This document shows, in pieces, positions 9,561-14,200 of a stretch of DNA of 38,062 nucleotides (position 1 is its first letter; every line of letters begins with the position of its first letter). The DNA lies in assembly GCA_029941785.1 (NCBI GenBank), contig JAPYTK010000030.1, positions 1 to 38,062 on the forward strand. The letters run 5' to 3'. This DNA comes from Polyangiaceae bacterium (GTDB lineage: Bacteria; Myxococcota_A; Polyangia; Polyangiales; Polyangiaceae). The notes under the pieces were generated by a model that was not told where the DNA came from, did not search any database, and was given only the letters and a program-made list of their open reading frames with translations. The position numbers were made by a program, and so were the translations under genes.

Positions 9561-11122
9561 ACCAAACCCCGATCTTCACTCTTCGGACCTACCTGCCTGC
9601 CGGGATTTTTGCCCCCTTCGCCTTTGCCTTGCTGCTCGCCTGCGGATCGGACATCGACGCCCCGAGCGATTCGACCACCACGGCTTCCGGCGGCGGCGGC
9701 GCAACGAGCAGCACGACCATCAACGGCGGCGCGGGAGGTAGCGGAGGATCCGTCGGCACGGGCGGTGACGGTGGAGAGGGCCTTTGCACGATCCCTGCAA
9801 ACGCGACCGTCGGCCTGCTGAAGCACACGAACGACAGCTTTGGCGGCTACACCTTGCTGGCGCCGAACGGCTCGACCCGCAGCTATCTGCTCGACGAGTG
9901 CGGGCAAGTCGTGCACCAGTGGCAGCATGGGTCGAGGCCTGGACAGAGCACCTATTTGCTCGAAAACGGCGATCTGCTGCGAGCCGAGAAGGTCGGCGGC
10001 ATGACCTTCCAGGCCGGAGGATCGGGCGGCCGGGTCGTTCGCTACAACTGGGAGGGCGACACGCTATGGACGTTCGCCTACAGCACGGACACCTACCGAC
10101 AACACCACGACGTCGAGCTGCTCCCCAACGGCAATGTCTTGCTCATCGCATGGGAGAAGAAGACCGCAGCCGAGGCTACCGCTGCAGGTCGCGACCCGAG
10201 CTTGCTCGCGCAGAACGAGCTGTGGCCCGATCACATCATCGAGGTCGTACCTGAGGGGCCCGCTGACGGTAAGATCGTGTGGCGGTGGAACAGCTGGGAC
10301 CATCTCATCCAAGATCACGACCCGAACCAGGCCAACTACGGCGTGCCTTCCGAACATCCCGAGCTCATCGACATCAACTTCGCGAACAACGGAAACGCCG
10401 ACTGGCTCCACATCAACAGCATCGACTACAACGCTGCTCACGACCAAATCATCCTGAGCGCCCACAACCTCAACGAGGTGTGGATCATCGATCACAGCAC
10501 GACGAGCAGCGAAGCGGCAAGTCACCAAGGAGGCAACAGCGGCAAGGGCGGCGACCTCCTTTACCGCTGGGGTAACCCGCAGACTTACGGTGCAGGCACG
10601 TCGGCGGACGAGCGCTTGTTCGGCCAACACGACGCACAGTGGATCGGCAACGGACTCTCCGGCGCTGGAGAGGTTCTCATCTTCAATAATGGTGCGAATC
10701 GACCCGAGGGCGACTACTCGACCGTCGAACAGATCGCCCTGCCGGTGGACGCAAACGGTCAATACTCGCTCCTGCCCGATGGATTTTTTGGGCCGACCGA
10801 CCCGACGTGGCTCTACAAGGCCGAGCCCGCAACCGACTTCTTCTCGCGCAATATCTCGGGCGCTCAGCGGCTCGCCAACGGAAACACCATGGTGTGCAGC
10901 GGAGCGAACGGCACGCTGTTCGAGGTGAGCGAGGCCGGCGACGTCGTCTGGCAGTACCTCAGCCCCAGCGGAGCCATGGGCCAGATCGTCAAACAAGGCG
11001 AGAGCATTCCGACGAACAACCAAGGCGAGCCGACCAACCAGGTCTTTCGCGCCTACCGTTACGCGGCCGATTTTGCGGGCCTCGCAGGCCGCGATCTAAC
11101 CCCGCAGGGAACACTCGAGTAG
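9557..11122 (+). CDS. Arylsulfotransferase (ASST)-like lipoprotein
   Basis: 521 residues from the ATG at 9557, which overlaps the manC stop (ATGA) and follows a GAGGAG ribosome-binding site. A signal peptide ends in a lipobox (ALLLACG, Cys29), followed by a Ser/Thr/Gly linker (about 32-74), a lipoprotein style typical of Polyangia. The body matches the arylsulfotransferase beta-propeller family: HHDVELLPNGN (His183, His184), HINSIDYN (His285) and FGQHDAQWIGNG (His358), with repeated NGN turns. In bacterial ASST a catalytic His takes sulfate from a phenolic sulfate ester. The true substrate here is unknown. Coupling to manC hints at a link to surface glycan modification, which is inference only. 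Confidence 0.83.
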   Translation: MNQTPIFTLRTYLPAGIFAPFAFALLLACGSDIDAPSDSTTTASGGGGATSSTTINGGAGGSGGSVGTGGDGGEGLCTIPANATVGLLKHTNDSFGGYTLLAPNGSTRSYLLDECGQVVHQWQHGSRPGQSTYLLENGDLLRAEKVGGMTFQAGGSGGRVVRYNWEGDTLWTFAYSTDTYRQHHDVELLPNGNVLLIAWEKKTAAEATAAGRDPSLLAQNELWPDHIIEVVPEGPADGKIVWRWNSWDHLIQDHDPNQANYGVPSEHPELIDINFANNGNADWLHINSIDYNAAHDQIILSAHNLNEVWIIDHSTTSSEAASHQGGNSGKGGDLLYRWGNPQTYGAGTSADERLFGQHDAQWIGNGLSGAGEVLIFNNGANRPEGDYSTVEQIALPVDANGQYSLLPDGFFGPTDPTWLYKAEPATDFFSRNISGAQRLANGNTMVCSGANGTLFEVSEAGDVVWQYLSPSGAMGQIVKQGESIPTNNQGEPTNQVFRAYRYAADFAGLAGRDLTPQGTLE

Positions 11123-11141
11123 CAGGCGAGTGTGCGCGAGG

Positions 11142-11151
11142 TGTGCGCACA
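11142..11151. promoter_or_regulatory. Perfect palindrome TGTGCGCACA, possible activator site
   Basis: This 10-base perfect palindrome lies 85-95 bases upstream of the sigma-54 promoter at 11235. Its centre is 21 bases, two helical turns, from the centre of a second palindrome at 11162-11173. Both share the core TGCGCA. Such spacing fits an upstream activator site for a sigma-54 enhancer-binding protein. That role is inference. Confidence 0.4.
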
Positions 11152-11161
11152 TGTGTACAAA

Positions 11162-11173
11162 GCTTGCGCAAGC
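11162..11173. promoter_or_regulatory. Perfect palindrome GCTTGCGCAAGC, possible activator site
   Basis: This is a 12-base perfect palindrome with no loop, so it is unlikely to be a terminator hairpin. It sits about 65 bases upstream of the -24 element at 11235 and contains TTGCGCAA, which recurs in the intergenic region before the 31182 gene. It is a candidate binding site for a dimeric regulator. Confidence 0.4.
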
Positions 11174-11234
11174 GGCCGTGGCCGTGGGTCGGTGAACCAC
11201 CAAATCCCAGGTACTTGACCGGGCGAACCGCACT

Positions 11235-11250
11235 TGGCACGGCGGTTGCA
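11235..11250 (+). promoter_or_regulatory. Sigma-54 (-24/-12) promoter of the Cys-rich lipoprotein gene
   Basis: The sequence TGGCACG-N4-TTGCA matches the RpoN consensus at every defined position, with GG at 11236-11237 and GC at 11248-11249, exactly 12 bases apart. Transcription would begin near 11261, giving a leader of about 36 bases with the AGAGG ribosome-binding site at 11284-11288 and the ATG at 11297. Sigma-54 promoters need an enhancer-binding activator; two palindromes upstream are candidate sites. Confidence 0.8.
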
Positions 11251-11296
11251 ATTGTTGGCGGGCAACCCAACCCCACCCCTCACAGAGGTTTTCATC

Positions 11297-11959
11297 ATGA
11301 AGCACGCCTGGTTGTTCGCCCTTCCCTTTCTCGCTCTCGCCTGTACCGGTGAAGTCACCGACGAACACGCCGAGGAGGCCCAAAGCAGCCTGAAGAGCAA
11401 ATCCTCGAAAAAGGCGAAGAAGAAGAAGAAGAAGCCAGTCCCCGCCTGCCAGAACGGCGCGCTGCCTGGCACCATGCCCGGTTGCGCCCCTGGCTATACC
11501 GTCGCGTGCGAGTTCGACAAGTACCCCTATTGCTGCGTATGCGAAGAAGAGCCGCCGACGCTCAGCTGCGCCAACGTCCTGTGCGCCGAGGGCTTCGAAT
11601 GCATCGAGACGAAGACGGGCCCGGAGTGTGTGCCGACCCTCAGCTGCGCGAACGTGCTCTGTCAAGCGGGCCACAGCTGCGAGACCGACTGCGGCGGCAA
11701 CCCCGTCTGCCTGCCGGACGTTTGCGAAGGATTCGCAGGGTTCAGCTGCCCCGATGACTTCAGCTGCATCAAGAAATCGAAGGCTCCCGATCAGGGAGGA
11801 AAATGCGTGAAAGACTGTGCGCCGAGCTGCGGCGAGTGCGTGTCCGACGGAGACTGCTCCAAGGGCGAAAGCTGCACCGCGAGCCAGGAATGCTTGTCGT
11901 CATGTGACTGCCCCAGCTGCGACGTCTGCGCCGGACACTGTGTGCCGGAAGAAAAGTAG
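11297..11959 (+). CDS. Cys-rich, Lys-tract lipoprotein
   Basis: 220 residues. The start ATG at 11297 has an AGAGG ribosome-binding site eight bases upstream; an earlier in-frame start would run through the sigma-54 promoter. A signal peptide with lipobox (LALACTG) is followed by a strongly basic Ser/Lys segment (six Lys in a row encoded by six AAG codons, 11417-11434). The rest is Cys-rich, about 30 cysteines, with a duplicated unit SCANVLC-x-GxxC (about residues 97-110 and 117-130) and later C-x2-C clusters (SCDCPSCDVCAGHC near the end). It resembles the disulfide-rich modules of myxobacterial exported proteins. No catalytic motif is seen and the function is unknown. Confidence 0.78.
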   Translation: MKHAWLFALPFLALACTGEVTDEHAEEAQSSLKSKSSKKAKKKKKKPVPACQNGALPGTMPGCAPGYTVACEFDKYPYCCVCEEEPPTLSCANVLCAEGFECIETKTGPECVPTLSCANVLCQAGHSCETDCGGNPVCLPDVCEGFAGFSCPDDFSCIKKSKAPDQGGKCVKDCAPSCGECVSDGDCSKGESCTASQECLSSCDCPSCDVCAGHCVPEEK

Positions 11960-12026
11960 CGCGCCAACAGTCGGCGAAACCAGCTAAGGCCGACCCCCAG
12001 GAAGGGCGGCCACCGGTTCCTCCCAC

Positions 12027-12845
12027 TCAAGCTTTGGCTTGGCGTTTGCGAAGCCAAGCGGAAAACGGCGCATAGAGAAGCCGCTTCACCCAGCGTGGTG
12101 ACAAGGCATTGAGCGCCATCACGATCTTCATCACCGTGCCTGGCACGACCATCGCCGCCCCCCGTTCGAACCCTCGAATCGAATCGCGAGCGCAACGCTC
12201 GGCTGAGATCTCAATCCAGGCCGGCGACCCCTGCCCGGTCACGTTGCCAACGTTCGCTTCAAACTCCGTCTTGACCGGACCTGGACACGATTGCGTCACG
12301 CACACACCGACAGGACCGAGGTCGCAACGAAGCGATTCGGTGAAACCAGTCACGAAGTGTTTCGTTCCCACGTAGGTCGCGAAGGCGGGCAAGAAACTCA
12401 AGCCAAAACCCGAGCTGATGTTGAGCACCCCCCCGTGCCCTTTGTTCACCATCGGACCGACGAGCCGGCGGGTCAGGTAACAAAGCGTGGTGACGTTGAG
12501 CTCGATCATCCGCTCCTGTTTGTCCCAATCGGTGCGATCGTACATTCCCATGTCACCGAAGCCAGCGTTGTTCACCAAGATGTCCACCACGCCCAACTGT
12601 CGCTTGACGGCGGCGAGCATCGCGTCGGTCGCCTCCCGATCGGTCAGATCACATGCTTGGACACTGACGGTGAGGTCAGCGTTCGAGGCGCGAAGCTCTT
12701 CGGCCAAGGCTTCGAGCCGCTCCTCGCGGCGCGCCACCAGAGCGATGGCGCTCAAACGCGGCGCCAGCTGACGGGCGATCGCTTCACCTATCCCTGACGA
12801 AGCACCCGTAACGAGCGCGACGCCACCATCGATCGGGGCACGCAT
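12027..12845 (-). CDS. Short-chain dehydrogenase/reductase
   Basis: 272 residues, the classical SDR length. The cofactor motif TGASSGIG is at residues 13-20, NNAG at 92-95, and the active-site set is Ser144/Ser145 with Tyr158-x3-Lys162 (YVGTK). An Arg pair after the second strand (LVARREER) suggests NADP preference. The substrate cannot be read from the sequence; related proteins are often annotated as SDRs acting on lipids or acyl chains. A basic C-terminal tail (KRLLYAPFSAWLRKRQAKA) might be membrane-associating. It starts 12 bases after the stop of the upstream monooxygenase-like gene and is probably co-transcribed with it. Confidence 0.88.
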   Translation of the reverse strand: MRAPIDGGVALVTGASSGIGEAIARQLAPRLSAIALVARREERLEALAEELRASNADLTVSVQACDLTDREATDAMLAAVKRQLGVVDILVNNAGFGDMGMYDRTDWDKQERMIELNVTTLCYLTRRLVGPMVNKGHGGVLNISSGFGLSFLPAFATYVGTKHFVTGFTESLRCDLGPVGVCVTQSCPGPVKTEFEANVGNVTGQGSPAWIEISAERCARDSIRGFERGAAMVVPGTVMKIVMALNALSPRWVKRLLYAPFSAWLRKRQAKA

Positions 12846-12857
12846 GGCGCGAAGCTA

Positions 12858-14126
12858 TCACTTTGCGTGGCCGGCGGTCACATAGAAGTAGGCGATACAC
12901 ATCTCGTCCTCGGTGCCATCTCCCCACGTGACCGTCTTGTCGCTCATGTTGTCCCAAGTGCAGGAAAGCACGACCTCGTCACCCTTATCCAGCTTCATTC
13001 CCTGCGGATCGTCGAGAAAGTAAAACTGTTGCCAATCGAAATCCCACTCGGGAATGTCGATGAGACAATCCTTGCCTCCCGCCTGCCGCTCGATGTTGAC
13101 GCTCGTGTGGCGGCCCTTGAGGTGCATGTGCGGAGCGGCTGCCCACACCGTGGCGTTGCCAGGCACCGTCATCCTCGCCTCGGCAGAGTATCCCGTCGTC
13201 GCTGGCGGAATGGCGAACGAATGATCGCTCATGGAATAGAGGCTCGCTTCATTTTGGACCGGCTCCTTGGCATATTGCAGTTCGATCGCCGTCTGATCGG
13301 GAAGCGAGCCCGAAGTCACGATGTTGTAGTGAATTTGCATGGCGATCTTCTTGCCAGCCTCGAGCCGGATCCCGGTGTTCGCCGGAAACGTGTAGGCCGG
13401 CGTGCCGGGCACCCAGCCAGCGATCACCTGTGCACTCGCCACGCCGGGCCCTCCTGGGCAATCGTAACCGGGCCCAGGATCGGCGGCGTCGAGTTGATCG
13501 AGTGCCGCGGCGTCCGCCGCGTACAGAAGGACGTGGTGGACCACTTTCTTCTCACCAGGCTTGACGTCATAACCGACGAAGAACACGTCCTCGCTGAGCT
13601 TTGGATCCAGGACGAAGCAACGATGGTCGTTCCCATCCAGAGAAGCGACCGGCGTGTAGCTTGCGCCCATGGTCAAAGTCGCATCGACCCATTCGAGCCC
13701 CTTCGGGGCGCCCAGTTCAGGGGGTGCGTCTGACGGGTCACCCTCGACGGCGCCGCCAGCGGACCAGGCAGAAAACACAGCCTTCTCCTCATCATTCAAG
13801 ATGCGTTCGCCATCGTAACTGTTGCATGCGGTCGAGGGTTGCCAGGGGGGCATGATCCCTTGACCTGTGACGTGGGCCATCAACTCCGCCCGCGCCGCGA
13901 GATCTTCCGAAAAGGTGGTCATGGAGAACGACAGCGAGTCATCCGCGTGACAACCGATGCAGTGCTGCTGCGCCACCGGCAGGACGTCCCGATACCAAGT
14001 CACCTCCGCAGCGCTGCTCCCGCCAGCGCCCGAGCCGCCTGCCCCGACATCTCCGACTTGGTCGCTGCACCCGAAACCGACACTTAACGCGAGCACGAGG
14101 CTCAACAGAAATTGCTTCGTCTTCAC
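12858..14126 (-). CDS. Haem c and copper monooxygenase (PHM-like) lipoprotein
   Basis: 422 residues. A signal peptide ends in a lipobox-like GFGC (Cys20) with a Gly/Ser linker. A cytochrome c motif CIGCH (56-60) follows, in a segment ending MPPWQPS, common in secreted Myxococcota proteins. The remainder resembles the copper type II ascorbate-dependent monooxygenase fold. All six ligands known from peptidylglycine monooxygenase have counterparts: His197-His198 (VVHHVLLY) and His266 (QIHYN) for one copper; His333, His335 (PHMHLKG) and Met409 (EDEMC) for the other. I infer an exported redox enzyme of unknown substrate. The SDR gene lies 12 bases downstream. Confidence 0.82.
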   Translation of the reverse strand: MKTKQFLLSLVLALSVGFGCSDQVGDVGAGGSGAGGSSAAEVTWYRDVLPVAQQHCIGCHADDSLSFSMTTFSEDLAARAELMAHVTGQGIMPPWQPSTACNSYDGERILNDEEKAVFSAWSAGGAVEGDPSDAPPELGAPKGLEWVDATLTMGASYTPVASLDGNDHRCFVLDPKLSEDVFFVGYDVKPGEKKVVHHVLLYAADAAALDQLDAADPGPGYDCPGGPGVASAQVIAGWVPGTPAYTFPANTGIRLEAGKKIAMQIHYNIVTSGSLPDQTAIELQYAKEPVQNEASLYSMSDHSFAIPPATTGYSAEARMTVPGNATVWAAAPHMHLKGRHTSVNIERQAGGKDCLIDIPEWDFDWQQFYFLDDPQGMKLDKGDEVVLSCTWDNMSDKTVTWGDGTEDEMCIAYFYVTAGHAK

Positions 14127-14200
14127 GGTGACTCATCGTAGCAAAACTCGTTCCACGGTACGACTGTCCGCGATCATTGGGCGCGCTGACCAAAATCGAC

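Follow-up and report, generated by a model that had tools for sequence, protein, structure and literature searches.

A very probable sigma-54 promoter of an orphan Cys-rich lipoprotein gene in a Polyangiaceae bacterium, and the lipoprotein-rich set of sites around it

In Borrelia, lipoprotein control runs through RpoS, whereas in the Polyangiaceae genome analysed here sigma-54-type sites lie directly upstream of lipoprotein genes. The Borrelia RpoN-RpoS lipoprotein pathway is named in the portions of PMC3162934 drawn on here, which present sigma-54 as a controller of the bacterial exterior and name lipoproteins and flagella; that account concerns the biosynthesis and transport of building blocks, deduced from gene context, whereas the present sites stand at individual lipoprotein genes. 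Sigma-54 is tied to lipoprotein expression in Borrelia, and here too the gene of a sigma-70-family factor follows a sigma-54-like site (locus L005). Direct sigma-54 sites at lipoprotein genes, as seen here, have been described in Leptospira interrogans, upstream of two putative lipoprotein genes and amtB, and leaderless mRNAs are common in that organism; in the sections of that paper considered (PMC5243855), however, the sites concern three genes only and leaderless starts are not tied to sigma-54. In Myxococcus xanthus, Nla28 targets with sigma-54 promoters include actB, pilA and MXAN881, a putative lipoprotein, and the consensus given in the consulted part of PMC9765219, TGGCACG-4N-TTGC(T/A), is the same as here, although several of those sites depart from it and the 8-bp tandem half-sites of Nla28 are not enriched in our set. 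The M. xanthus targets are developmental genes, while the comparison made here is from sequence alone. The sections considered of a 2025 study (PMC12316311) connect sigma-54 with the cell wall in Myxococcia and with secretion in both Myxococcia and Polyangia, mention lipoproteins once and report rpoN to be essential in M. xanthus, and leaderless mRNAs of C. jejuni are described, in the relevant part of PMC3847290, with sigma-70 promoters upstream. Control of the exterior by sigma-54 is already known, and the site described below is an ordinary, well-supported sigma-54 promoter; the interest lies in the set-level pattern, a lipoprotein bias together with leaderless spacing, of which no report was found in the portions of the open-licence literature that were searched.

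The window analysed is one whole contig of 38,062 nt (C30) from an assembly of 6.03 Mb in 415 contigs (98.84% complete). At positions 11235–11250 of its forward strand it carries TGGCACGGCGGTTGCA, an exact copy of the sigma-54 (−24/−12) consensus (TGGCACG-GCGG-TTGCA), in which the GG and GC elements are spaced by 10 nt and which falls within the pattern TGGCACG-N4-TTGCW. Between its last base and the ATG at 11297 lie 46 nt (47 if the A is counted), and the consensus, spacing and 47-base distance to the start codon proposed in an earlier sequence-only reading were all borne out. A Shine-Dalgarno-like AGAGG is found at 11284–11288 (+), 8 nt from its end to the ATG. Transcription is predicted to start at 11261–11264 (+): textbook −12 geometry puts the start at 11261, while the genome's excess of ATG codons 12–13 nt past the motif (see below) would place it at 11263–11264. 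An inverted repeat, GTTG-N5-CAAC (11255–11267), spans the predicted start, and the leader region 11262–11340 was predicted to fold into no more structure than its shuffled versions (z = 0.93).

The downstream gene (11297–11959, +) begins 174 nt past an arylsulfotransferase-like gene (Pfam PF05935) and encodes a protein of 220 aa. The predicted product has a lipobox and the Cys of the signal peptide (MKHAWLFALPFLALA directly before the Cys, by our rule-based caller; LALA before Cys16), a Lys-rich stretch (K33–K46) and 31 Cys, all of them in the mature part, in agreement with the prior description of a Lys-tract, Cys-rich exported lipoprotein behind the motif. The Lys-rich stretch is encoded in part by a run of AAG codons (11393–11434), a possible slippage tract. 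A Pfam search of the protein returned no family at E 0.1, the NCBIfam model TIGR04201 (Myxo_Cys_RPT) scored 15.6 bits, below its curated cut-off of 25 bits, and a comparison with solved structures gave nothing useful (best E = 0.062). Among the other genomes of the order, 182 in all, no full-length relative was found; weak, partial Cys-rich matches occurred in 2 of these 182 and in 2 of 96 relatives, and among the matches listed the one at L002 covers query residues 112–217 inside a longer Cys-rich protein. The neighbouring arylsulfotransferase gene gave just short, weak matches within the genus, and synteny yielded nothing. The lipoprotein gene is an orphan, and promoter footprinting on homologues is therefore ruled out. 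As a guess, the product could be an outer-membrane lipoprotein built of disulfide-rich modules, with a basic stretch that may bind anionic surface polymers.

Near matches to the motif are not rare, as TGGCACN5TTGCW with at most one mismatch occurs three times in the window against 1.1 expected by chance. This frequency of about one per window, together with an orphan gene that blocks footprinting, would favour the view that the 16-mer is a chance match and no promoter, the gene being read from another, unrecognised promoter. The exact form, however, behaves differently: TGGCACGGCGGTTGCA is the sole exact match in the window, no exact match arose in any of 100 dinucleotide shuffles, and the whole 6.03-Mb assembly holds 10 exact TGGCACGN4TTGCW sites versus 2 for the reversed pattern. 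All 10 score as non-coding and have a correctly oriented gene 12–119 nt downstream. These assignments rest on a codon-usage score that was trained on 58,036 codons of the organism's own genome and applied to 120 nt around each site, with a non-coding threshold of 5 bits picked after the deciles of random positions had been viewed (20% quantile of random window positions, 5.1 bits). For the slightly broader TGGCACN5TTGCW, found at 16 sites genome-wide (8 for the backwards pattern), all 16 sites scored at most 4.7 bits and all 8 backwards controls at least 9.7 bits (Mann-Whitney p = 2.7e-6), and every one of the 16 is followed by a gene in the right orientation that starts at 12–173 nt by the final caller. 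Because coding sequence is avoided by exact sites in this genome, it is very probable that any one of them is functional. The 46-nt distance also falls in a populated group (39–50 nt; 13 genes, 9 of them lipoproteins), and no sigma-70-type site was found at 11050–12100, both of which argue further against a chance match, an explanation we consider very unlikely.

Polymerase carrying sigma-54 binds stably without an activator, and the site could on this ground act as a repressor-like or poised element, with most expression coming from an overlapping promoter of another kind. The position of the site 46 nt upstream of the ATG in the right orientation, as for other members of the set, speaks against such a role, as does the lack of a sigma-70-type site in the interval just given, and we rate it marginally less probable even than a chance match. 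The motif itself is real, and it very probably works as a sigma-54 promoter. The sequence-only reading had named in advance the absence of rpoN and of enhancer-binding proteins as evidence against itself; both were looked for and found. There is one match to rpoN (PF04552, 217.9 bits, E = 2.2e-64, C44:22010–22489), and the genome has 35 matches to Sigma54_activat (PF00158), of which 27 exceed 137 bits and the weaker ones carry little meaning, as this family occurs in all 14 control genomes. Together with the promoter-like behaviour of the motif class across the genome, these components support the placing of the lipoprotein gene under a sigma-54 promoter.

It is highly likely, in our judgement, that 11235–11250 serves as the sigma-54 promoter of the gene at 11297–11959 by the following route. 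RNA polymerase with sigma-54 would recognise the site and be held on the −24/−12 elements as a closed complex until remodelled by an AAA+ activator, perhaps bound 90–120 nt upstream at two perfect palindromes (described below). Transcription from near 11261–11264 would yield an mRNA leader of about 33–36 nt that includes the AGAGG ribosome site, and the product would be exported and lipidated at Cys16; the outer membrane would then hold it by this anchor, leaving both the Lys-rich stretch and the modules rich in Cys exposed. Genome-wide, the promoter would belong to a set of some 40–75 that favours lipoprotein genes and also takes in flagellar genes, with a sub-class in which the start codon coincides with the transcription start, giving leaderless mRNAs.

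The set was delimited by allowing at most one mismatch to TGGCACGN4TTGCW, which gave 96 sites (79 for the backwards pattern; the coding score was run on the 96 alone). Among the 96, 76 scored as non-coding and 20 as coding, but about one-fifth of random positions also score below 5 bits, so that chance may account for as many as about 16 of the 76; 8 of the 76 lie under a called gene. A further limit concerns the downstream genes, as 21 of the 76 had no called gene at 0–250 nt and were excluded from the lipoprotein count, leaving 55. Of these, 30 precede lipoprotein genes (8/10 exact sites and 22/45 one-mismatch sites) compared with 38/200 in the background (p = 5.8e-7), and the bias persists without the target gene (29/54, p = 1.2e-6). 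The first 11 non-coding one-mismatch loci taken alone showed no significant bias (4/11, p = 0.23). The 200 background genes, each preceded by a gap of at least 50 nt, were taken from 20 stretches, one at the beginning of every odd-numbered contig of C1–C39 and 20 kb long; this is not a random sample, and it contains a few of the sites (for example the L005 site). For the 16 genes behind TGGCACN5TTGCW, 12 were called as lipoproteins against the same 38/200 (p = 6.6e-6), with one caller for both, which had been loosened after the first result, as the stricter version missed evident cases, and which still misses some by eye in the site set and the background alike.

These features of the analysis bear on whether the lipoprotein enrichment is an artefact, either because lipoprotein genes more commonly stand alone, each with a promoter to itself, or because the caller favours them; this alternative concerns the set and not the promoter status of the target site. 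Lipoproteins are abundant in the genome, at about 1 in 6 genes (57/334 by the strict caller, 56/319 by the looser one), and the reverse test was weak: sites with at most one mismatch preceded 0/57 background lipoprotein genes and 3/262 other genes (p = 1), and sites with at most two mismatches 4/57 and 7/262 (p = 0.11). In contrast, the background restricted to genes with a sufficient upstream gap reached just 38/200 with the identical caller, the strict first caller still gave 8/16 versus 57/334 (17%; p = 0.002), and the pattern repeats, as judged by eye, in genomes of the same genus. An artefact is therefore thought unlikely, if somewhat less so than a chance match at the target site, and we retain the reading of a genuine bias. 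The weak reverse test instead suggests that sigma-54 serves a small, lipoprotein-rich set that makes up just a small share of all lipoproteins. Such a set would suggest which of the many lipoprotein genes are switched together and would tie an orphan lipoprotein to a regulator. Similar upstream stretches were noticed by eye at three of the lipoprotein genes (L009, L014, L018), perhaps reflecting an element close to the promoter that is mobile or repeated.

The four non-lipoproteins among the 16 are a sigma-70-family factor (L005), FlgM (L011) and the products of L012, with a signal peptide by eye, and L013, with none evident. The L005 site, TGGCACTGTTTTTGCT (L005:1501–1516), lies 173 nt upstream of the sigma-factor gene (Pfam regions 2, 3 and 4), which suggests a cascade from sigma-54 to a further sigma factor. 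In the wider set, sites precede genes for FlgM (L011), FliD (L063), flagellin (L072) and a flagellar rod protein (L258), the products being assigned by Pfam, and the organism probably has sigma-54-driven flagella. The proposal that the target has a developmental or surface-behaviour role is not borne out in the form given: a set consisting mainly of lipoproteins and exported proteins with some flagellar ones fits the cell surface and is silent on development.

The lipoprotein enrichment extends to relatives; within the genus it is strong, and across the order it is moderate, with a lower share of lipoproteins in the wider relatives. An exact site is present in 63 of 97 genomes (including the present one). 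The two same-genus genomes hold 7 exact sites, all non-coding by the model trained on the present genome, and 6 of the 7 precede a lipoprotein gene by eye, the site at L107 being the one left unassigned. Outside the genus, sampling covered 30 loci from the search and 40 regions hand-picked among the matches listed, giving 68 distinct sites, of which 56 were non-coding; 45 of these 56 had a called gene. Lipoproteins made up 14 of these 45 genes versus 23/179 in a background of hand-chosen contigs (p = 0.006), with 6 of the 45 having a start called upstream of the site; for genes at 0–250 nt, the count was 13/37 (p = 0.003).

Sigma-54 promoters are expected, on the mechanism proposed above, to respond to an activator bound further upstream, and the target has two candidate sites, the perfect palindromes TGTGCGCACA (11142–11151) and GCTTGCGCAAGC (11162–11173), about 110–120 and 90–100 nt upstream of the predicted start, respectively. 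Perfect palindromes of at least 12 nt were found in 8/52 sigma-54 upstream regions, the target included, versus 5/159 background regions (p = 0.004), and those of at least 10 nt in 16/52 versus 28/159 (p = 0.05). A search for words and gapped words in the sigma-54 upstream regions against the same 159 background regions revealed none common to most of the set. The word ATTGCGCA occurred in 4/27 regions versus 0/159, tied with several other words in 6806 tests; on held-out sites it was found in 4/49 versus 0/159 (p = 0.0028), two of these hits falling within a single repeated stretch, while the broader TTGCGCA gave 7/49 versus 9/159 (p = 0.064). As an activator word, ATTGCGCA may be regarded as a weak lead. 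It is absent from the target, which carries the related CTTGCGCA, and GCTTGCGCAAGC contains TTGCGCA, which is related to ATTGCGCA and is not ATTGCGCA itself. At two different lipoprotein genes (L214, L241), ATTGCGCA sits in an identical upstream stretch, as might result from the copying of an activator site. Another candidate, ACAA-N5-GCGC, which the target contains, ranked best among the lipoprotein regions (4/17 versus 0/159; 2735 tests) but failed on held-out sites (1/49). Tandem half-sites of the Nla28 type were likewise rejected, occurring in 15/27 of the set compared with 73% of 500 random 220-mers from the window. The target has four words resembling Nla28 half-sites, and its tandem TGCGCA pair (10–20 nt apart) was seen nowhere else among the loci scanned in this genome.

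The distances from motif to start codon show a pattern of their own. Among 54 genes of this genome behind non-coding sites (0–200 nt), 5 have an in-frame ATG at 12 nt past the motif and 8 at 13 nt, with none at 4–11 nt and a single out-of-frame ATG at 12–13 nt. A Shine-Dalgarno sequence of at least 4 bases was present in 3/13 genes with a called start 12–18 nt from the motif versus 16/22 of those at 25–60 nt, and genes with an in-frame ATG at 12–15 nt were lipoproteins in 12/15 cases by eye (9/12 by the caller with its own starts). The exact motif followed by an ATG within 3–32 nt was matched in 94 of 183 genomes of the order. Among the 150 matches listed for the order (43 genomes), 50 fell at 12–14 nt and none at 11 nt, whereas offsets outside 11–15 nt averaged 3.7 matches each; when one over-represented genus was removed, 35/100 of the matches listed remained at 12–14 nt (Poisson p = 2.5e-14). 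In the phylum, where 277/377 genomes had the exact motif with an ATG, 150 matches from 53 genomes were listed, and among these the other orders of the class had 23/57 at 12–14 nt and 2 at 11 nt (p = 8.8e-14) and the other classes 23/93 at 12–14 nt and 6 at 11 nt (p = 1.8e-6), or 15/83 at 12–14 nt (p = 0.005) among the matches listed without one genome that has a repeated site; all these Poisson values are too strong, as the distance tables include several ATGs per site and related genomes. Outside the class the spike weakens and is less sharply defined.

The simplest reading of the spike is that transcription starts there, the mRNA being leaderless or having up to about four leader bases, and genes of the set that lie close to the motif probably give mRNAs without a leader. 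For the set as a whole, the spike lends indirect support to transcripts that begin about 12 nt past the GC element. The target, at 46 nt and with its AGAGG, stands outside this sub-class, whose starts lie 12–15 nt past the motif without a Shine-Dalgarno sequence. The set would thereby predict that sigma-54 makes leaderless mRNAs and, if this is true, enhancer-dependent transcription would be joined to leader-free translation. More broadly, sigma-54 may to a great extent act as a surface-lipoprotein switch, both in this bacterium and across its class, serving scattered, fast-changing genes that include orphans, have consensus −24/−12 promoters in common and in large part give leaderless mRNAs, such that an activator signal could exchange the lipoprotein coat without a ribosome-site step; we judge the chances of this wider proposal to be evenly balanced.

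A second sigma-54-like site in the window, TGGAACGAGTTTTGCT (14140–14155, −), differs from the consensus by one mismatch, a quality of match that chance alone should yield roughly once in each window, and lies 13 nt before a GTG, so that its transcript is predicted to be leaderless. The gene behind it (12858–14126, −) encodes a copper monooxygenase-like protein of 422 aa with a lipobox by eye (SVGFGC), which is a lipoprotein by the strict caller and not by the looser one. An SDR gene (12027–12845) starts 12 nt past it, and the two probably form one operon. In G367, a genome of another class, ten exact sites are among the matches listed; most have almost the same tail, which ends in GACTCGATG, as though a promoter together with its start had been duplicated to many places in that genome.
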